This document shows positions 35,679 through 61,548 of a DNA stretch of 64,000 nt, piece by piece. Position 1 is the first letter of the stretch. Every line of letters begins with the position of its first letter. A model generated the notes under the pieces. That model did not search any database. It saw only the letters and a list, made by a program, of their open reading frames with translations, and was not told the DNA's origin. A program made the position numbers and the translations under genes. The DNA is taken from contig CAJIZJ010000009.1 of the NCBI GenBank assembly GCA_905181825.1, positions 1-64,000 on the forward strand. The letters are read 5' to 3'. Source of the DNA: an uncultured Flavobacteriaceae bacterium. Its GTDB lineage: Bacteria > Bacteroidota > Bacteroidia > Flavobacteriales > Flavobacteriaceae.

Positions 35679-37847
35679 TTAAGATAAAATAAAGTCTAAG
35701 TGTTTTTTTAATAAGTCTGCTTGTTTTACACGAACCTCTACTTGATCTCCTAATTGATATTTTGTTTTTGTTCGTTCACCTATTAAGGCATATTCGTCAG
35801 AATCAAATCTATAGAAATCTCCTTTTATATCTCTTATTCTTATCATGCCTTCGCATTTATTTTCTATTATTTCTACATACATACCCCATTCGGTAACTCC
35901 AGAAATAACTCCTAAAAAATTATCTTCTTTATGATCTTGCATGTATTTAACTTGCATGTATTTTATAGAGTCCCTTTCTGCTTTAGTAGCAAGGCTTTCC
36001 ATATTAGAAGAGTGTTTACATTTTTCTTCAAAAACTCCTTGGTCAGTTGTTTTATTACCATCTAGATAGTGTTGTAATAATCGATGGACCATGACGTCTG
36101 GATAACGACGAATAGGAGAGGTAAAATGACTATAATAATCAAAAGCTAATCCGTAATGTCCAATATTTTTAGTTGAATACTCTGCTTTACTCATGCAACG
36201 AATTGTAAGTGTATCAACTAAATTTTGCTCTTTAGTACCTTTTACGTTTTTAAGAAGTGTATTTAAAGAATTTGTTGTTGTAGTTCTATTTTTAAAATTT
36301 AATTGATGTCCAAATTGAGATACTATTCGTTGAAGTCCTTGAAGTTTTATATCGTTAGGTTCGTCATGAGTTCTGTAAATAAATGTTTTTTGAGGGGATT
36401 GTTTTCCTATAAATTCAGCTACTTTTTTATTAGCTAATAACATAAATTCCTCAATTAGTTTATTTGCATCTTTAGATGTTTTAAAAAAAACACCTACAGG
36501 ATTACTAGTTTCATCTAAATTAAACTTAACCTCAACTTTATCAAATGATATAGCGCCATCTTTCATGCGTTTCTCTCTCATTATTTTAGCGAGTTCATTT
36601 AGTTTAATTATTGAGTTTTTAATAGGGGTTGTTGTTATATAAGATTTATTAGTAATAGATATATCTTTTGGTATTTCACAACCTTCTGTCTCAATAATGT
36701 GTTGAGCTTCTTCATAAGCAAATCTAGCATCACTATATGTTACAGTTCTTCCAAACCATTGGTTTACTATATCTGCTTTGTTATTTATTTCAAATACTGC
36801 AGAAAAGGTATATTTTTCTTCATGAGGTCGGAGGGAACATGCATTATTTGATAACACTTCTGGTAGCATAGGAACTACTCTATCTACTAAGTAAACAGAA
36901 GTAGCTCTTTCATAAGCCTCATCGTCTAGAACTGTTCCTTCTTGTAAATAATGAGATACATCTGCAATATGAATACCTATTTCATAATTTCTATTTGCAA
37001 GCTCTTTAAAAGATAAAGCGTCATCAAAATCTTTTGCGTCTTTTGGATCTATAGTAAATGTAAGGGTAGAACGCATATCTCTACGTTTTAACACTTCTTC
37101 TTCTGTGATGGATGTATTTATATTATTTGCATAATTTTCTACTTCTAAAGGGAACTCTATAGGTAATCCATACTCTGCTAGTATGGAATGAATTTCTGTA
37201 TTATGTTCTCCAGGCTTGCCTAATATCTTTATTATTTTACCATTTGGACAATCTGCTTTTTCTGGCCATTCTTCTAAAGCTACTAATACTTTATCACCAT
37301 CTTCAGCTTTCAGAGTTTTAGATAAGGGTACAAAAATATCTATAGGCATTTTATTACTATCTGGAACAACAAAAGCAAACTTTGCATTTAATTGAACAAT
37401 ACCTACATATTCAGAGCGAGCTCTTTTTATAATTTGTGTTACCTCGCCTTCTTGTTTACCATTCTTTTTACGATTGTAAATGTATAATTCAACGGTATCT
37501 CCATGAAGTGCCTTATTCATATTATTAGAAGCTATAAAAATATCTTCTTCAAAATCTTCACTTATTATATAACCATTCCCTCGGGATGCCATATCTACTG
37601 TTCCTGTAAAATATTCGGTAGAGCTTATTATTTTAAATTTACCTCTTTCAACTTCTTCTATTTCTTTATGACCTGCTAATTTGTGTAAATTTTTTATAAT
37701 TTGATTTCTACTACTTGAATCGTTAACCCCTAGCTTTGCAGCAATTTGTTTATGATTATAAGTCTTATTTCTATCTTGTTTAAGTATAGTTAATATACTT
37801 TCACTATAATTTTGTACAGACTTTTTATTGTTCTTATTTCTTTTCAT
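35679..37847 (-). CDS. rnr: Ribonuclease R
   Basis: 3'-5' exoribonuclease of the RNase II family, 722 residues. Order: an N-terminal winged-helix-like region, cold-shock RNA-binding domains, then the RNB catalytic domain with DPKDAKDFDDALSF (metal-binding aspartates) at about 265 and GIHIADVSHYL. The C-terminal S1 domain contains GVISGVTEWGMYVEI. It degrades structured RNAs and takes part in rRNA quality control. Codons are strongly AT-biased. It reads away from the AT-rich candidate origin region. Confidence 0.96.
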   Translation of the reverse strand: MKRNKNNKKSVQNYSESILTILKQDRNKTYNHKQIAAKLGVNDSSSRNQIIKNLHKLAGHKEIEEVERGKFKIISSTEYFTGTVDMASRGNGYIISEDFEEDIFIASNNMNKALHGDTVELYIYNRKKNGKQEGEVTQIIKRARSEYVGIVQLNAKFAFVVPDSNKMPIDIFVPLSKTLKAEDGDKVLVALEEWPEKADCPNGKIIKILGKPGEHNTEIHSILAEYGLPIEFPLEVENYANNINTSITEEEVLKRRDMRSTLTFTIDPKDAKDFDDALSFKELANRNYEIGIHIADVSHYLQEGTVLDDEAYERATSVYLVDRVVPMLPEVLSNNACSLRPHEEKYTFSAVFEINNKADIVNQWFGRTVTYSDARFAYEEAQHIIETEGCEIPKDISITNKSYITTTPIKNSIIKLNELAKIMREKRMKDGAISFDKVEVKFNLDETSNPVGVFFKTSKDANKLIEEFMLLANKKVAEFIGKQSPQKTFIYRTHDEPNDIKLQGLQRIVSQFGHQLNFKNRTTTTNSLNTLLKNVKGTKEQNLVDTLTIRCMSKAEYSTKNIGHYGLAFDYYSHFTSPIRRYPDVMVHRLLQHYLDGNKTTDQGVFEEKCKHSSNMESLATKAERDSIKYMQVKYMQDHKEDNFLGVISGVTEWGMYVEIIENKCEGMIRIRDIKGDFYRFDSDEYALIGERTKTKYQLGDQVEVRVKQADLLKKHLDFILS

Positions 37848-37865
37848 TTATGATATGTGATTAAG

Positions 37866-37873
37866 CAAATTTA
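37866..37873 (-). promoter_or_regulatory. Candidate -7 promoter box for rnr
   Basis: TAAATTTG on the minus strand, full match to TAnnTTTG, 19 bases before the rnr ATG; it predicts a leader of only about 10-15 bases. Confidence 0.5.
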
Positions 37874-37911
37874 CCACTTTAATTCAACGAAGACTCACCC
37901 GTTTTTTAACT

Positions 37912-37920
37912 TTATCCACA
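37912..37920 (+). other. Perfect DnaA box
   Basis: TTATCCACA matches the strong bacterial DnaA-binding consensus TTATNCACA exactly and sits at the rnr-side edge of the AT-rich region. Confidence 0.6.
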
Positions 37921-38029
37921 TTTAATATAATTATATAATTTTTTTATTTAATTATTTAAAAACTAATGGTGTTTATTATAGTGTGTTAATAGCCTATATA
38001 AGTTTTATATAATTATAATATAAGTTACA

Positions 38030-38060
38030 TTATAAACATCTTATAAACATCTTATAAACT
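38030..38060 (+). repeat. Three tandem 11-base repeats (TTATAAACATC)
   Basis: TTATAAACA begins at 38030 and 38041, and TTATAAACT at 38052, so the unit repeats every 11 bases, about one helical turn. Each 9-mer differs from the DnaA box TTATCCACA at two or three positions, so they could be weak phased DnaA sites or origin iterons. Confidence 0.8.
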
Positions 38061-38290
38061 ATATAAAACATTGTAAATCAATTAATTATATAGATTATTA
38101 TACATTGTTAATAACTAATATAATTCAAGTTAATTAATAATTTTTTTAATTTTTTATGTTAACAACCTCTTTTTTTATAATCATAAGTACTTAACTCAAA
38201 TAGATAACTTTATTAGGTTTATAATTTATTATTTGTGGTTGATAAAAAAAAATGAATATTAAAAATTTAGTTTTCATTTTCCTTCATTAA

Positions 38291-38299
38291 TTATCAACA
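38291..38299 (+). other. Near-consensus DnaA box
   Basis: TTATCAACA differs from TTATCCACA at one position and lies on the rpiB side of the AT-rich region. Confidence 0.4.
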
Positions 38300-38381
38300 A
38301 CTAATTAAACATGCTATTAACATTATATTTTTTATACTTTTCTTTTTTTGTAAATTTACTAAGAATTAAATAAATATTTAA

Positions 38382-38813
38382 ATGAACATATCAATAGGTA
38401 ACGATCACGCAGGAACAGTTTATAAATTTAAAATTTTAGAATTTTTAAAGAATAAGAAAATAAATGTAACTAATCATGGTACTGACTCCGATACTAGTGT
38501 TGATTATCCTGATTTTGTACATCCTGTTGCTAAAGATATTATTAATAATATTTCCAAGTATGGTATTTTAATATGCGGTAGCGCAAATGGCGTCGCTATG
38601 ACAGCAAATAAATACTCCGATATAAGAGCTGGTATATGTTGGAATAATGAAATAGTATCATTAATAAGACTTCATAATAATGCTAATATTCTTTGTATAC
38701 CAGCACGTTTTACAAATATAAAAGATGTTTTAGAAATGGTAAATACTTTTTTAACAACAGAATTTGAGGGTGGTAGGCACCAAAATAGAATTAATAAAAT
38801 TAAATCTTGTTAA
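38382..38813 (+). CDS. rpiB: Ribose-5-phosphate isomerase B
   Basis: Interconverts ribose 5-phosphate and ribulose 5-phosphate in the pentose phosphate pathway. 143 residues, the usual RpiB/LacAB length. The N-terminal ISIGNDHAGTVYKFKILEFL and DYPDFVHPVAKDI are typical; the catalytic-loop motif GILICGSANGVAMTANKYSDIRAGIC has Ser where many RpiB have a Cys/Thr loop (ICGTGxG/GSANG type). A 36-base gap leads to the GNAT gene on the same strand. Confidence 0.92.
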   Translation: MNISIGNDHAGTVYKFKILEFLKNKKINVTNHGTDSDTSVDYPDFVHPVAKDIINNISKYGILICGSANGVAMTANKYSDIRAGICWNNEIVSLIRLHNNANILCIPARFTNIKDVLEMVNTFLTTEFEGGRHQNRINKIKSC

Positions 38814-54207: not shown

Positions 54208-57200
54208 TTGGATAGTTTTCAAAAGATAGAATTAAATTTAAGGCTTTTTATTCGCCAATACTACATAAGCGCTCTGTTAAGGGGCGTGCTTATGTTTCTT
54301 TGTGTTGGTCTTCTTTTTGCTCTTTTTCTGTTAATTATTGAACACTTTCTTTGGTTTAGCTCATTAGGGCGCACCCTTTTATTTTGGTTTACAGTTAGCT
54401 TTGAACTTGTTATATTTTATGGTTTTATTTTAAGCCCATTGTTCAAATTATTTCAAGTTCAGAACGGGATTGGTTTTGAAACGGCGTCAAAAATTGTCGG
54501 AGAGCACTTTCCGGAAGTAAAAGACAAGCTTTTGAATGTCTTACAGCTCAAACAACAGTCAGACCATACAGAACTGTTACTTGCAAGCATAGAGCAGAAG
54601 TCCAATCGCTTAAAGACAATTTCGTTCAAAAAAGCGGTTAATTTTTCTGAAAACAACAAGTATATAAAGTACGCTCTTTTGCCCATCCTCATAATATTTA
54701 TCTTTTATGGAGCCGGCAAGCAATACGTTTTCACAGACAGCCTGAAGCGCGTTGTTAATTACCAAGCCAGCTATTCTCCACCAGCCCCTTTCGATTTTGT
54801 TGTTAACAATTCTTCGCTATCTACTCTCGAAAACGAGTCATTTACTCTTAAGGTTCTAACACGAGGTTCTGTAGTCCCTGAAACCGTTAAGATTATTTAT
54901 GACAACGACAGTTTTCTGTTAAAGTCATTAAGCCCAGGCGTTTTTGAGTATCAGTTTCTCCAGCCTAAAAAGACCTTCAATTTTAAGCTTTTTTCTGGAA
55001 ATGTCACATCTAAAAGCTTACAATTAACAGTTGTCCCTACGCCTGTAGTGCTTGGGTTAAGCCTTTACGTTTACCCACCTGACTACACGCGGCAGCCGAC
55101 CAGGAAAATAGTCAATAACGGAAACGCCACCGTTACTGAAGGCGCCATGTTGAAATGGGAGCTTCTTACGAAGTCAACAGACTCAGTCGTGTTTTTGACT
55201 GGAACTTCACGCTCTTTTTTTGATAAGTATAATCAGCAATTTACCCTCTCTAAGCAATTTTTTAATTCACAAGGTTACACTATAAAAACTAGTAATTCAA
55301 AACTCGCCAACTTTGAAAGTCTCGATTATTTTATTAATATCACCAAGGATAAACCCCCCACAATTCAGGTTCAGATGAAACGCGACTCTACAATGGAAGC
55401 CTCTCTTTATTTTTACGGGCAGCTTTCAGATGATTACGGGCTTAGGGAATTAAACCTACATTATTTCCCTACCAACAACCCCAGCATCAATAAAAAAATC
55501 AAGTTGCCATTATCTGAAGGCAATTTTCTAGAATTCACCCATTTTTTCCCCTCAAACTTAGAGCTTTTAGAGGACACAGCTTATTCACTATATTTTGAGG
55601 TTTTAGACAACGACCCTATTCATAATTACAAGTCAACACGTAGTCGGACCTTTAAGTATAATCACAAAAGCGAGAAACTGATTGAAGCTTTAAGAATTAA
55701 TCAACAGAGCCAAGTTACGAACGCTCTCCAAAAGGCGCTAAAAGCACTCGCCCAGGAAAACAAAACACTTAAAGAGATTTCTCAAAACCAAAAGGAAACT
55801 CCCCGTCTTAATTATTCAGATCAGCTAAAACTTAAGCAGTTTATTGAGCGCCAAAAAAGTCAAGACAAATTACTTGAGACCCTTAATAAATCAATGCAAG
55901 AAAACTTAAGTCAGTTTAAAAAGACCGACAAGGACCCATTTAAAAAAGAATTACAAGAACGCTTAAAGTCACAAGAAGAATCTCTTCAAAAAAACGAAAA
56001 GTTACTAGAAGAGATTGAAAAGATTGCCAGTAAAATTAAAAAGGAAGAGTTGGCTGAAAAGCTTGATGAAATTGCGAAGCAAAGTAAAAACAAGCAGCGA
56101 AGCCTAGAGCAACTTTTGGAGCTAACAAAGCGTTACTACGTCACAAAAAAAGCTGAACAAATTAATAGTCAAATAAAAGCACTTTCAAAAGAACAAGAGC
56201 TATTGTCTAAAACCCCTTCAGATCTAAACACTAAATCGGCCCAAGAAGCTCTTAACGACTCTTTCGATCAGGTTCGTCAAGAACTTGATGCTTTAAAAAA
56301 AGATAACAACTCATTATCTAAGCCGCTGTCGCTTCCCGACGACCCTTCACTAGAGGAGTCTATTGCCAAAGACCAGCAAGAAGCTTTGGCGAATTTAGAT
56401 AAAAAAGAAGAATCGTCTGAACCAAACATCAAGCAAAGCGCGCTAAACCAAGCACAAAAAAGTCAGAAAAAAGCAGCTCAAAAACTTCAGCAAATGGCAC
56501 AAAAAATGGGACAGAAAATGGGTGCTGGCGGAGCGAAACAAATGGCAGAAGACGCTGAGGTCCTGCGTCAAATTTTAGACAATTTAATTTTCTTTTCTTT
56601 TGAACAAGAAGCTTTGATGAATCGAGTTTCCTTGTCCTCTGCTAATCCCCGCGAACTTGCTGTTCAGCTGCTTAAACAAAGCAACCTACGTACTCATTTT
56701 GAGCACGTTGAAGACAGTTTGTTTGCGCTATCCTTACGACAACCAATGATTTCTGAGCCTATTAACAAAGAGGTCACAGAGGTGTTTTTTAATATTGACA
56801 AAAGCTTAGCGTTGCTCTCAGAGAATGAACTTCAAAAAGGCGTAAGCTCGCAGCAATTTGTAATGATGGCCACTAATAAGCTGGCAGACTTGCTAAGTGA
56901 AGCTCTAAGCAATATGGAAGCCCAACTGGAGCTCTCGTCAGGCCAAGGTCAAGAAGAAATGCAACTCCCTGATATTATTAAGAGTCAAGAGGCCTTGAGC
57001 GAGGAAATGGAGAAAAAACTAGGCAAAAAGGGCAAAGATTCAGAAGGTGAAAGTGGAGATCTTAAACCGGGTAATAAGGGCAAGGAATCAGGAGATCAAA
57101 ATGGCACTGAGCCCTCTTCGGGCTCTAAACCCAGTGATTCCACACAAGGGTCTGGAAATGAAGGAGATAGTGGTGAGTTGTTTGAAATATTCAAACAGCA

Positions 57201-57576
57201 ACAAGAACTAAGAGACGCCTTGCAAGACTTATTAATGAAAAACGGATTTTCTAAATCAGACAACGCGCTTCTAAAGTCTATGAGTAAGATCGAAGAAAGC
57301 CTCATCAACAACGGAGTTACTCAGAACACATTGGATCAGATGAATGCCTTGAAGCATCAACTTTTAAAACTAAACAAAGCAACGCTTGAGCAAGGAGAAG
57401 ACTCTAAAAGACAATCAGACACGGGTGTGAGCACGCTTACAGCTGAACCTTCTGTAGGTCCCGAAACGATAAAACAATATTTTAATACTACGGAAATATT
57501 AAATAGACAAAGTTTACCTTTGCGTCAAGATATACAGAAAAAAGTTCAAGAATATTTCAAAACAAACAATGATTAG
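54208..57576 (+). CDS. DUF4175 family large membrane protein
   Basis: 1122 residues with a TTG start (MDSFQKIELNLRLFIRQYY); no ATG lies upstream in frame. Two membrane helices near the N-terminus (LLRGVLMFLCVGLLFALFLLII, LLFWFTVSFELVIFYGFIL) and one at about 150 precede an extracytoplasmic beta-rich region (250-500). Very long charged coiled-coil segments rich in Gln, Lys and Glu follow (500-800), and then a C-terminal helical domain. The family is typical of Bacteroidota and its function is not known. It overlaps ybeY by eight bases, and this order (DUF4175-ybeY-mnmG) recurs in flavobacteria. Confidence 0.85.
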   Translation: MDSFQKIELNLRLFIRQYYISALLRGVLMFLCVGLLFALFLLIIEHFLWFSSLGRTLLFWFTVSFELVIFYGFILSPLFKLFQVQNGIGFETASKIVGEHFPEVKDKLLNVLQLKQQSDHTELLLASIEQKSNRLKTISFKKAVNFSENNKYIKYALLPILIIFIFYGAGKQYVFTDSLKRVVNYQASYSPPAPFDFVVNNSSLSTLENESFTLKVLTRGSVVPETVKIIYDNDSFLLKSLSPGVFEYQFLQPKKTFNFKLFSGNVTSKSLQLTVVPTPVVLGLSLYVYPPDYTRQPTRKIVNNGNATVTEGAMLKWELLTKSTDSVVFLTGTSRSFFDKYNQQFTLSKQFFNSQGYTIKTSNSKLANFESLDYFINITKDKPPTIQVQMKRDSTMEASLYFYGQLSDDYGLRELNLHYFPTNNPSINKKIKLPLSEGNFLEFTHFFPSNLELLEDTAYSLYFEVLDNDPIHNYKSTRSRTFKYNHKSEKLIEALRINQQSQVTNALQKALKALAQENKTLKEISQNQKETPRLNYSDQLKLKQFIERQKSQDKLLETLNKSMQENLSQFKKTDKDPFKKELQERLKSQEESLQKNEKLLEEIEKIASKIKKEELAEKLDEIAKQSKNKQRSLEQLLELTKRYYVTKKAEQINSQIKALSKEQELLSKTPSDLNTKSAQEALNDSFDQVRQELDALKKDNNSLSKPLSLPDDPSLEESIAKDQQEALANLDKKEESSEPNIKQSALNQAQKSQKKAAQKLQQMAQKMGQKMGAGGAKQMAEDAEVLRQILDNLIFFSFEQEALMNRVSLSSANPRELAVQLLKQSNLRTHFEHVEDSLFALSLRQPMISEPINKEVTEVFFNIDKSLALLSENELQKGVSSQQFVMMATNKLADLLSEALSNMEAQLELSSGQGQEEMQLPDIIKSQEALSEEMEKKLGKKGKDSEGESGDLKPGNKGKESGDQNGTEPSSGSKPSDSTQGSGNEGDSGELFEIFKQQQELRDALQDLLMKNGFSKSDNALLKSMSKIEESLINNGVTQNTLDQMNALKHQLLKLNKATLEQGEDSKRQSDTGVSTLTAEPSVGPETIKQYFNTTEILNRQSLPLRQDIQKKVQEYFKTNND

Positions 57577-57991
57577 TTTTAGCATAGAAACCCAATTTGA
57601 ATTCCTTAAAACCAAGGCCGCCTCTAAATGGCTTAGCTCTATTATCTCTAATGAGAGCCGTGGTGAAGGAGAAATATCAATTATTTTCTGTAATGATGAC
57701 TTTCTCTACAAGCTAAATGTAGAGTTTTTAAATCACGACACTCTCACGGATGTTATTAGCTTTGACTATTCAGTTGGCAATGAAGTTCATGGAGAGATAT
57801 TTATTTCTGTGGAAAGAGTTAGAGAAAATGCAGTGGAATTTGAACAGGTTTTCGAAACAGAACTCTACAGGGTTATGGCTCACGGAGTTTTGCATTTTTG
57901 CGGATACAAAGACAAGACTGCCGCAGAATCTTCTTTGATGCGCAGCAAAGAAGACTTCTATCTACAACAACTAATGGATAAGCCTTTCTAA
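57569..57991 (+). CDS. ybeY: Endoribonuclease YbeY (rRNA maturation factor)
   Basis: 140 residues. Needed for 16S rRNA 3'-end processing and ribosome quality control. DVISFDYSVGNEVHGEIFIS and MAHGVLHFCGYKDKTAAESSLMRSKEDFYL match the family. The zinc-site pattern normally reads HGxLHLxGYDH; here the first two His are present but the third position reads Lys-Asp (GYKD), so the third ligand would be Asp or missing. It is translationally coupled to the DUF4175 gene. Confidence 0.92.
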   Translation: MISFSIETQFEFLKTKAASKWLSSIISNESRGEGEISIIFCNDDFLYKLNVEFLNHDTLTDVISFDYSVGNEVHGEIFISVERVRENAVEFEQVFETELYRVMAHGVLHFCGYKDKTAAESSLMRSKEDFYLQQLMDKPF

Positions 57992-57996
57992 ATCCC

Positions 57997-58004
57997 TATA
58001 TTTG
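57997..58004 (+). promoter_or_regulatory. Candidate -7 promoter box for mnmG
   Basis: TATATTTG, full match to TAnnTTTG, just after the ybeY stop and 47 bases before the mnmG ATG. The first parS-like site would lie in the leader, about 10 bases after initiation. Confidence 0.45.
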
Positions 58005-58019
58005 CAGACTCAACTGATT

Positions 58020-58035
58020 TGTTCCACGTGGAACA
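58020..58035. other. parS-like ParB binding site 1
   Basis: Perfect 16-base palindrome TGTTCCACGTGGAACA, matching the parS consensus TGTTNCACGTGNAACA in every fixed position. It lies between ybeY and mnmG. parS sites normally cluster near the chromosomal origin. Confidence 0.88.
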
Positions 58036-58050
58036 TTAAACAAGTAACCA

Positions 58051-59922
58051 ATGTTTGATAAAATTTATGATGTAATTGTAGTAGGTGGTGGCCACGCAGG
58101 CAGTGAAGCTGCTGCTGCTGCTGCCAACATGGGGAGTCAAACGCTGCTCGTTACCATGAACCTTCAAAACATAGCTCAAATGTCATGCAACCCTGCAATG
58201 GGTGGTATCGCTAAAGGGCAGATTGTTCGCGAGATTGACGCTCTAGGGGGTTACAGCGGAATTGTTAGTGATACGTCTGCTATTCAGTTTAAAATGCTTA
58301 ATAAGTCTAAGGGTCCAGCAATGTGGAGTCCAAGAGTTCAAAGCGATCGTATGCGTTTTGCTGAAGATTGGAGAATGCTTCTTGAACAAACTAAAAACTT
58401 AGACTTCTACCAAGAAATGGTCACTGGCCTAGTTGTTAAAAAGGGTCGAGTTACTGGAGTAAAGACTTCTTTAGGAGTGGAAATTAGAGCTAAGTCTGTT
58501 GTGTTGACCAACGGGACCTTTCTTAATGGACTTATACATATAGGTGATAAAAATTTTGGAGGTGGCCGCGCAGGGGAAAAAGCTGCCACAGGAATCACAG
58601 AACAACTTGTAGACTTAGGCTTCGAGTCTGGTCGCATGAAAACAGGCACCCCGCCACGAGTGGACGGTAGGTCTTTAGATTTTTCAAAAATGATAGAGCA
58701 ACCAGGAGACTCAACGCCTGAAAAGTTTTCATTTTCTGATATTACCAAACCCTTACAGTCTCAGCGTCCTTGCCATATGTCATACACTAGCACAGAAGTA
58801 CACAATCTTTTAAAGGAGGGCTTTGATCGCTCTCCGATGTTTAATGGTCGCATACAAAGCTTAGGGCCTCGTTACTGCCCTTCAATTGAAGATAAAATAA
58901 ACCGCTTTGCAGACAAAGATCGTCACCAGATTTTCGTGGAGCCCGAAGGTTGGAACACTGTAGAGTATTACATTAATGGTTTCTCAACATCTCTTCCTGA
59001 AGACATCCAATTTAAGGCTTTGAGAGCGGTTAAAGGTTTTGAAAAGGTTAAGTTTTTCAGGCCTGGATATGCTATTGAATACGACTACTTCCCCCCTACT
59101 CAGTTAACACACTCCTTAGAAACAAAACTTGTTAGTGGCTTATACTTTGCGGGGCAGATTAACGGGACAACCGGTTATGAGGAAGCAGCGTCTCAAGGCC
59201 TAATGGCAGGCATTAATGCCAGTCTAAAGATCCAAGAAAAAGACCCTTTTGTATTAAAAAGAAACGAGGCTTATATAGGCGTTTTAATTGACGACCTTAT
59301 TACTAAGGGTACAGATGAGCCATATAGAATGTTTACCTCTAGAGCCGAGTACCGTACACTTTTAAGGCAAGACAACGCTGATATTCGCCTTACTCCAAAA
59401 GGATATGACTTAGGAATTGCTAGCGAAAAAAGATTAAAACGAATGGAAGAAAAGCTTTCTAAAGCAGAAGCTTTTGTTGGGTTTTTTAGAACACAAAGCG
59501 TCAAGCCAGCAGAGGCTAATCCTGTATTGGAGAGTAAGAATTCGGCTCCTATTAGACAATCAGATAAGATGTTTAAGGTTTTTTCAAGACCTAATATCGG
59601 TATCGAAGACGTTCGTAAATTTGCAGCTGTTGACGCCTATATAAATGATCATGAATTAGATCGAGAAGTTATTGAGCAAGCAGAAATTCAAGTCAAATAT
59701 TCAGGATACATCGCTAAGGAAAAGAATAACGCAGACAAATTAACGCGTTTAGAATATGTGAAAATCCCAGCGGGATATGATTATTCGCAAATTAAATCTA
59801 TGAGTTATGAGGCTCGAGAAAAACTTAAAAAAGTGCAGCCATCAACAGTTGCTCAAGCCTCCCGAATTAGCGGGGTTTCTCCAAACGATATTTCTGTTTT
59901 GTTAGTTTATATGGGGCGATAA
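58051..59922 (+). CDS. mnmG: tRNA uridine-5-carboxymethylaminomethyl modification enzyme MnmG (GidA)
   Basis: FAD enzyme that with MnmE modifies the wobble uridine of certain tRNAs. 623 residues. FAD-binding motif VVVGGGHAGSEAAAAAANMG is at about 9-28, the conserved cysteine motif NPAMGGIAKGQIVREIDALGG follows, and GRAGEKAATGI, GTPPRVDGRSLDF and the C-terminal YEAREKLKKVQPSTVAQASRISGV...DISVLL are typical. mnmG is often close to oriC in bacteria. Two parS-like sites flank it. Confidence 0.97.
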   Translation: MFDKIYDVIVVGGGHAGSEAAAAAANMGSQTLLVTMNLQNIAQMSCNPAMGGIAKGQIVREIDALGGYSGIVSDTSAIQFKMLNKSKGPAMWSPRVQSDRMRFAEDWRMLLEQTKNLDFYQEMVTGLVVKKGRVTGVKTSLGVEIRAKSVVLTNGTFLNGLIHIGDKNFGGGRAGEKAATGITEQLVDLGFESGRMKTGTPPRVDGRSLDFSKMIEQPGDSTPEKFSFSDITKPLQSQRPCHMSYTSTEVHNLLKEGFDRSPMFNGRIQSLGPRYCPSIEDKINRFADKDRHQIFVEPEGWNTVEYYINGFSTSLPEDIQFKALRAVKGFEKVKFFRPGYAIEYDYFPPTQLTHSLETKLVSGLYFAGQINGTTGYEEAASQGLMAGINASLKIQEKDPFVLKRNEAYIGVLIDDLITKGTDEPYRMFTSRAEYRTLLRQDNADIRLTPKGYDLGIASEKRLKRMEEKLSKAEAFVGFFRTQSVKPAEANPVLESKNSAPIRQSDKMFKVFSRPNIGIEDVRKFAAVDAYINDHELDREVIEQAEIQVKYSGYIAKEKNNADKLTRLEYVKIPAGYDYSQIKSMSYEAREKLKKVQPSTVAQASRISGVSPNDISVLLVYMGR

Positions 59923-59934
59923 TATAACTAAACA

Positions 59935-59950
59935 TGTTCCACGTGGAACG
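59935..59950. other. parS-like ParB binding site 2
   Basis: TGTTCCACGTGGAACG matches site 1 in 15 of 16 bases; only the last base differs. It lies 1915 bases from site 1, right after mnmG and just upstream of the methyltransferase ATG. The track's extended start translates it as FHVER. Confidence 0.85.
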
Positions 59951-59954
59951 CTGT

Positions 59955-60809
59955 ATGAAGACACACAATAAACATATCACTCTTAAGGATTATTCTGTTA
60001 GCGGCGAAACATTTTCGCTTCTTAAAGACCCCTCTCTGGACTTGCTATACACCCACCCCAAGCCAAGCGACGAAGAGTTGAAGGCGTTTTATCCGAAAGA
60101 AGGCTATATTTCACACAGTAATCAATTAAAGACTCTCTTTGACTTTCTATATCATGCCGTAAGATATTTTTCTTTAAGAAGAAAAGTTAGGCTTGTAAAG
60201 CCCTTTAAAACCAAAGCAGCCACTCTGTTAGACATTGGCGCTGGAACGGGTTATTTTATAAGAGCCGCCAAAAAAAGCGGTTGGAATGTTAATGGGATAG
60301 AGCCCAATTCTGTAGCTAGAGAAATTGCAAATATGAAAGAATCCAACACGGTAAATTGCGAAAAATCCTTAAGCAGTCTTGAAGATGCGTCTTATGATGT
60401 CATCACACTTTGGCACGTTTTAGAGCACCTCCCAAATATCGAAGAAGACTTGAAAACGTTTAAAAGATTGCTTAAGCCAAATGGTCGCATTATCGTGGCC
60501 GTTCCTAATTTCAAAAGTTTTGACGCCCTTTACTTCAAAAGTTTTTGGGCTGCATACGACGTCCCAAGGCATCTATGGCATTTTTCCAAAGAATCTATTC
60601 CCAAAATCTTTTCTAAAGTCCAGATGAAATTAGAAAAAACATATCCAATGCGTATGGACGCTTATTATGTTAGCATGTTATCCAACAAACAGAAAACAGG
60701 TTCCATCCGTTTTTTAAGTAGCCTTCTCACGGGCTTTCGCTCAAACCTCAAAGCTTCAAAGTCAGGAGAGTACTCATCCCTAATTTATGTGTTAAAAAAC
60801 ACTTATTAG
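59955..60809 (+). CDS. Class I SAM-dependent methyltransferase
   Basis: The track starts at 59934, but the first seven codons (MFHVERC) are just the translated parS-like site. The ATG at 59955 gives MKTHNKHITLKDYSVSGETF and 284 residues. The SAM-binding motif LLDIGAGTGYFIRAAKKSGWNVNGIEPN is at about 85-112 and the post-motif VITLWHVLEHLPNIEEDLKTFKRLLKPNGRIIVAVPN is standard. An N-terminal extension with YTHPKPSDEELKAFYP is seen in this methyltransferase group. The substrate is unknown. Confidence 0.88.
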   Translation: MKTHNKHITLKDYSVSGETFSLLKDPSLDLLYTHPKPSDEELKAFYPKEGYISHSNQLKTLFDFLYHAVRYFSLRRKVRLVKPFKTKAATLLDIGAGTGYFIRAAKKSGWNVNGIEPNSVAREIANMKESNTVNCEKSLSSLEDASYDVITLWHVLEHLPNIEEDLKTFKRLLKPNGRIIVAVPNFKSFDALYFKSFWAAYDVPRHLWHFSKESIPKIFSKVQMKLEKTYPMRMDAYYVSMLSNKQKTGSIRFLSSLLTGFRSNLKASKSGEYSSLIYVLKNTY

Positions 60810-61035
60810 CGTTTTAAAGGTCTTTAAGCCCTAGTTGACACTTAAGCCAAACATCGGTATAAAGAAAAAACGTTTATTTATTAGGACGCTCTAAAAGCGG
60901 ATGTTTTAGATAAGATAATCCAATGAAGGTCTTGATTTTCTATAGTTTTTTTCTATAACGCAACTCGTTTGAATATTTTGTGTTTTTGCCATTGGTTTTT
61001 TTTACTTTTACAAAATCAAATTAAAATATACAATT

Positions 61036-61548
61036 ATGAATAAACTAGCCCTTTCTTTTTTAGCGTTAATAAGCCTTGCTGCATGTCAGCAACCAAAAAT
61101 CGGATTTGTTGACAATGTTGTTCTTATAAATAAATATCAAGAACGTGTGGACATAGAATCTAAACTCCAAGCTAAAATTGAAATATTCAAAAAGCGGACA
61201 GACAGTCTTCGCTCTGCTTTTGAGCTAGAAATCAAAGATGCTGAAATAAGAGCCCGTAAGATGTCTCAGTCAGCTATTCAGAAGCTATCTCAAGAACTAC
61301 AGCAAAAAGAGCAAGTTTTACAACAAAGAGTTCAGTTTGAACAGCAATCAATTGCTCAAGAAAGTCAAACTCTAAATGACTCAATTATTAATAAAGTAAT
61401 TGACTTTGTTAAAGATTATGGAGTAACTAACAGTTTCAACTTTATATTGGGAAGTAATGAAGCGGGTAGTGTTTTGTATGGGCAAGAGTCTTCAGATTTA
61501 ACTCAAGAAATTCTTGAGGCCTTAAACGAAAAATACAGTAAAAATTAA
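61036..61548 (+). CDS. OmpH/Skp-like lipoprotein
   Basis: 170 residues with lipoprotein signal LSFLALISLAAC (Cys at about 17). It is followed by IGFVDNVVLINKYQERVDIESKLQAKIEIFKKRTD and a long helical coiled coil rich in Gln, the OmpH/Skp periplasmic chaperone pattern. Skp normally has no lipid anchor; lipidated forms occur in Bacteroidota. A possible promoter lies in the 226-base upstream gap (TTTG at 60977-60980, TACTTTTA at 61003-61010). It converges with holB with a four-base overlap. Confidence 0.82.
   Translation: MNKLALSFLALISLAACQQPKIGFVDNVVLINKYQERVDIESKLQAKIEIFKKRTDSLRSAFELEIKDAEIRARKMSQSAIQKLSQELQQKEQVLQQRVQFEQQSIAQESQTLNDSIINKVIDFVKDYGVTNSFNFILGSNEAGSVLYGQESSDLTQEILEALNEKYSKN

Follow-up and report, generated by a model that had tools for sequence, protein, structure and literature searches.

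A probable DnaA-type chromosomal replication origin between rnr and rpiB in the Flavobacteriaceae

Chromosomal origins have been predicted with Ori-Finder 2022 for two members of the Flavobacteriaceae, Mariniflexile litorale (PMC11278836) and Algorimicrobium (PMC12843772). Both predictions use mnmG as the oriC marker and are supported by GC skew, and in M. litorale dnaA did not match the skew (PMC11278836). The legend to figure 3 of the M. litorale paper gives leuB/dnaA as oriC and mnmG as ter, contrary to the text of the same paper, and the labels have apparently been swapped. In Blattabacterium, a reduced flavobacterial symbiont, neither DnaA boxes nor dnaA were found. The locus described here belongs to the same family as the two predicted origins; compared by marker gene name, it is the rnr–rpiB gap as opposed to mnmG, and the two are 20 kb apart in the DNA that we analysed. 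The rnr–rpiB gap is named in no paper found by our literature search, while the DoriC database may list the region for some species.

The analysed stretch of 64 kb (the window; G000:C9:1-64000) comes from a MAG of 1.66 Mb in 61 contigs, which is 76.65% complete and whose closest named relatives are Flavobacteriaceae MAGs. This MAG encodes DnaA on another contig (G000:C49, profile match of 508 bits, above the cut-off) and carries a gene for ParB. Within the window, the two divergent genes and the gap between them are arranged as follows:

35679–37847, minus strand: rnr, ribonuclease R, left flank (TIGR02063, 729.9 bits)
37848–38381, no strand: proposed oriC, the whole rnr–rpiB intergenic region (longest gene-free stretch, only box cluster of the window, family-wide conservation)
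38382–38813, plus strand: rpiB, ribose-5-phosphate isomerase B, right flank (TIGR01120, above the cut-off)

The gap spans 534 bp, begins directly after the rnr start codon, which ends at 37847 on the minus strand, and contains only 15.9% G+C; the next longest gene-free stretch is 387 bp. The initial annotation had described it as the longest gene-free stretch, very AT-rich and lying between divergent genes, and its coordinates proved exact. It had also suggested a candidate oriC. We consider, from sequence comparisons, that the gap is very probably a DnaA-type chromosomal replication origin: the orientation of 16S genes, the position of parS, the skew switch and the box cluster in relatives all support this suggestion, and these four independent signals place the origin at or very near rpiB.

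The elements recognised inside the gap are the following:

37912–37920, plus strand: primary DnaA box TTATCCACA, exact, about 470 bp upstream of rpiB and the only exact match in 64 kb
37920–37962, no strand: A/T-only run of 43 bp, candidate DNA unwinding element, starting on the last base of the primary box
37973–38001, no strand: core repeat copy 1 (direct repeat D1), TTATTATAGTGTGTTAATAGCCTATATAA, with an inverted CTATTAACA-type site at 37984
38030–38051, plus strand: two tandem TTATAAACATC units with an 11-bp period (repeat D2), weakly DnaA-box-like
38095–38123, no strand: core repeat copy 2 (D1), TTATTATACATTGTTAATAACTAATATAA, 79% like copy 1 at a spacing of 122 bp
38106–38114, minus strand: inverted DnaA-type box TTATTAACA, inside core copy 2
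38130–38157, no strand: second A/T-only run, 28 bp, from the scan for such runs
38291–38299, plus strand: second DnaA-type box TTATCAACA, 379 bp after the primary box

All the elements that the initial annotation had picked out are thereby accounted for: its perfect DnaA box is TTATCCACA at 37912, its one-mismatch box is TTATCAACA at 38291, its related minus-strand strings are TTATTAACA at 38106 and CTATTAACA at 37984, and its phased repeat array is the pair of TTATAAACATC units, which is followed by a third, partial copy. The gap contains five TTATHMACA boxes, counted on both strands, a number reached in none of 1000 dinucleotide shuffles (mean 0.30), and represents the only cluster of at least three such boxes in the window. 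Since the window as a whole has no surplus of one-mismatch DnaA boxes (15 against an expected 18), it is their clustering and conservation that carry the argument. In the complete genome of the same genus (G115, the only one, sampled for 1.6 of its 2.74 Mb), the rnr–rpiB gap with its six boxes is likewise the only cluster of at least four TTATHMACA boxes per 500 bp, and no cluster of this density occurs in the 1.2 Mb control samples from three other genera. Two hallmarks of an oriC are therefore found in the gap, a box cluster beyond chance and an A/T-only run abutting the perfect box, which is the predicted unwinding element. This 43-bp run is the longest of the four A/T-only runs of at least 25 bp in the window, and its place in the alignment is AT-rich in relatives too. 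The core of 29 bp, TTATTATA-nnn-TGTTAATA, is present twice, 122 bp apart. The alignment reveals the TTATAAACATC tandem repeat in the nearest relatives, and it was not seen there in other genera.

Comparison of the gap in related genomes, one of the checks proposed for the initial annotation, revealed conserved boxes across the genera of Flavobacteriaceae. A TTATYCACA box recurs upstream of rpiB, nearly always on the same strand and very often at about -470. In the region from -1000 to -300, 45 of 72 named loci have it on the plus strand and one has it on the opposite strand; the shuffle control averaged 0.9 and did not exceed 3. At least three boxes per gap are present in 48 of these 72 loci, but at least four in only 25, which counts against the oriC reading. 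Measured from the primary box, the core TGTTRATA begins at +71 to +73 in 33 of 46 loci. Most of these 46 loci also have another box on the same strand 379–393 bp after the primary one, most often at +389 to +392, with 390 as the commonest value and 379 in the window. Among the 10-mers most enriched in the gap (65 loci) are the core words GTTATTATAG and TGTTAATAGC, and the order of the gap elements holds across genera in the alignment. We tentatively suggest that the flavobacterial origin has an architecture of its own, comprising a strong box, a melting stretch, two cores (TTATTATA, three bases, TGTTAATA) that contain weak DnaA sites in inverted orientation, and another box on the same strand some 390 bp further on, in which the core would be lineage-specific; this proposal is somewhat less likely to hold than to fail. 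If it is true, the core may, for example, be bound by an as yet unknown regulator of the origin or serve as a separate unwinding module.

The flanking genes are also conserved: rnr and rpiB are divergent and 0.6–5.5 kb apart in 22 of 24 complete genomes of the family. In seven genomes (G113, G148, G105, G146, G056, G123, and G230) the separation is widened to 1.9–5.5 kb, perhaps by genes inserted beside the origin, and in G021 the two genes are 37 kb apart. The record of G023 has rnr starting at base 600 and rpiB close to its end, so it was seemingly opened at or near the gap. In another family (f4: G166, G174, G196, G204, and G208) rpiB and rnr are in tandem rather than divergent, with a spacer of 300–460 bp and parS 3–6 kb away, and therefore one gene was flipped while the neighbourhood stayed.

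Conservation of this kind might be ascribed to a merely regulatory role, in which the gap would be a divergent control region for rnr and rpiB, AT-rich owing to its two promoters. Across the family the gap does carry the motifs TACCTTTG (25 of 65 loci) and GTAGCTTTG (21 of 65), which resemble the Bacteroidota promoter element TAnnTTTG, and because of this resemblance the gap probably holds the promoters of both genes as well; the two functions can coexist. However, two promoters leave unexplained the conserved DnaA boxes at a fixed spacing of 390 bp, the uniqueness of the box cluster in the G115 sample, and the polarity of 16S genes, parS and skew around the gap. Sigma-70-like promoter sites in the gap are at chance level, and a search of it against Rfam revealed no RNA. 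A purely regulatory role is thus very improbable.

The polarity of whole chromosomes points to an origin in the same place. The MAG of the window is fragmented, and the orientation of 16S genes was tested in relatives. We located rpiB and dnaA in 24 complete genomes of the family, and dnaA was never near rpiB; it lies approximately a quarter to half of the chromosome away, which bears out the earlier statement that the origin is not beside dnaA. In 22 complete genomes of the family, 49 of 49 16S matches are directed away from rpiB and 4 of 49 away from dnaA, and in 19 further genomes of the order the count for rpiB is 51 of 51; the figures 49/49 and 51/51 overstate independence, since some of the species are closely related and a few matches are possibly fragments of one gene.

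Chromosome-scale GC skew, also proposed as a check, changes sign at rpiB, from minus to plus, in three sampled relatives (G134, G074, and G054) and does so weakly in G115. In the three relatives, raw skew in the sampled sequence is mostly below zero to one side of rpiB and mostly above zero to the other. When skew at four-fold sites was separated by gene strand, an origin at rpiB gave z values of 7.2, 5.5 and 12.0, and an origin at dnaA gave -7.2, -1.4 and -10.6, respectively; dnaA is nearer to the terminus than to the origin in the genomes sampled for skew. Within 10 kb, the left–right skew leans towards an origin in 44 and 46 of 71 named loci but is mixed by gene, and it carries no weight in our argument. 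The skew was computed on sampled sequence and has a resolution of tens of kb, and for this reason the exact position of the origin rests on the boxes and their conservation.

In G115 the skew is weak, a point against the oriC reading. When the terminus is placed opposite, corrected skew puts the origin best at 1.26–1.28 Mb, compared with 1.323 Mb for the gap (45–65 kb off), and the arms differ in corrected skew by 0.030 (bootstrap interval 0.004–0.055, with 25 kb around the gap excluded). A free two-breakpoint fit of origin and terminus to four-fold-site skew, too weak to be decisive, prefers 1.845/2.655 Mb, not rpiB. Both 16S genes located in this genome are directed away from the gap.

The third line of evidence is the centromere-like ParB site. 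The relevant features of the window are:

58020–58035, no strand: parS, TGTTCCACGTGGAACA, centromere-like ParB site, exact match
58051–59922, plus strand: mnmG (gidA; TIGR00136, 840 bits), flanked by both parS sites
59935–59950, no strand: parS-like site with one mismatch

These two sites, which the initial annotation had correctly placed 20 kb from the gap, are the only parS sequences that the whole MAG contains when up to one mismatch is allowed. An exact parS occurs in 20 complete genomes of the family, and in all 20 it is 7–55 kb from rpiB and about 0.9–2 Mb from dnaA. In G115 there is no parS up to one mismatch, which tells against the oriC reading; between it and the MAG of the window, the ParB site has been lost or has diverged within the genus.

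The position of parS on both sides of mnmG in the window fits another placement, in which the true origin would be elsewhere in the neighbourhood, beside mnmG and parS, as in the two papers that name mnmG as the marker; skew and 16S genes are unable to separate loci 20 kb apart. However, the spacers flanking mnmG are just 59 and 11 bp by ORF coordinates, no DnaA box within one mismatch occurs beyond 52358 in the window, and neither the window nor the G115 sample has a box cluster outside the rnr–rpiB gap. Moreover, the gap is conserved, whereas mnmG, in those relatives in which it was seen, lies across the gap from its position here. We therefore regard an origin beside mnmG as unlikely. The ybeY–mnmG–parS block (54208–61548 in the window) lies on the rpiB side here, but the relatives in which it was seen have it on the rnr side, on the same strand; this block has crossed the origin.

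The initial annotation had seen no clear skew switch at the gap, and locally the skew indeed changes from plus to minus. In this genus, the sequence up to about 25 kb from the gap shows a reversed corrected skew, plus on the rnr side and minus on the rpiB side (28500–54100 in the window). In five relatives the G/(G+C) of minus-strand genes at four-fold sites is 0.33–0.41 on the rnr side and 0.52–0.63 on the rpiB side, and the four-fold-site skew of the window agrees with this reversed pattern. The reversal exceeds the effect of gene orientation, since in the window it is seen on genes of either strand. A recent inversion of a flank is not an evident cause either, because the gene order nearest to the gap is common to the family. 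The C-rich coding strand of the mnmG–parS block would fit its former (rnr) side; beyond this block we offer no explanation for the reversal, which counts against the oriC reading.

Taken by itself, the local change from plus to minus, together with the many genes facing the gap, would suit a replication terminus, which had been left as a live alternative. The genes at 39–54 kb do face the gap, and the checkable part of their order is conserved in relatives whose family puts the origin here. However, all 16S matches of relatives, including both in G115, are directed away from the gap, the arm-scale skew has the opposite sign, and parS, an origin-proximal element, is located here. A terminus at the gap is rejected on these grounds and has hardly any probability left. 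Of the marks of a terminus, an arm-scale skew maximum and converging rRNA operons are both contradicted by the opposite pattern; only the local skew fits.

Given an origin in the rnr–rpiB gap, we suppose that replication starts by ordinary DnaA-dependent initiation, which beyond the sequence elements themselves follows the classical model. DnaA, encoded elsewhere, would load on the perfect box at 37912 and on the weaker TTATYAACA-type boxes over about 390 bp, and the resulting complex may melt the 43-bp A/T-only stretch beside the perfect box. The helicase would be loaded at the melted stretch, and two forks would leave, one via rnr and the other via rpiB. ParB bound to parS around mnmG, 20 kb off, would then move the new origins apart.

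What this analysis adds is the exact location, the family-wide conservation and the internal anatomy of the origin; first discovery is not claimed. Several records of the family start at dnaA, which is far from the origin. With a precise family-wide origin, read-depth estimates of growth rate, skew analysis and comparisons between chromosome arms would become correct for this widespread marine group, and the gap offers studies of initiation in Bacteroidota a short DNA fragment that can be tested. It also raises the question of why the origin stays with rnr and rpiB and not with dnaA.

Compared with the classical DnaA-dependent oriC, the gap differs in lying away from dnaA, in having one perfect box with several weaker TTATYAACA-type boxes, and in carrying two copies of the 29-bp core repeat, of which we found no description. 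Inspection by eye revealed no clear DnaA-trios (3'-GAT-5') beside its boxes, in contrast to the basal unwinding system of Bacillus subtilis, which consists of DnaA boxes, a spacer, and DnaA-trios (PMC8287927), but both systems have a box followed by an easily melted stretch. With the classical oriC the gap shares TTATCCACA-type boxes on both strands and an adjacent A/T-only stretch, as well as an origin-proximal parS, a skew switch and outward rRNA operons.
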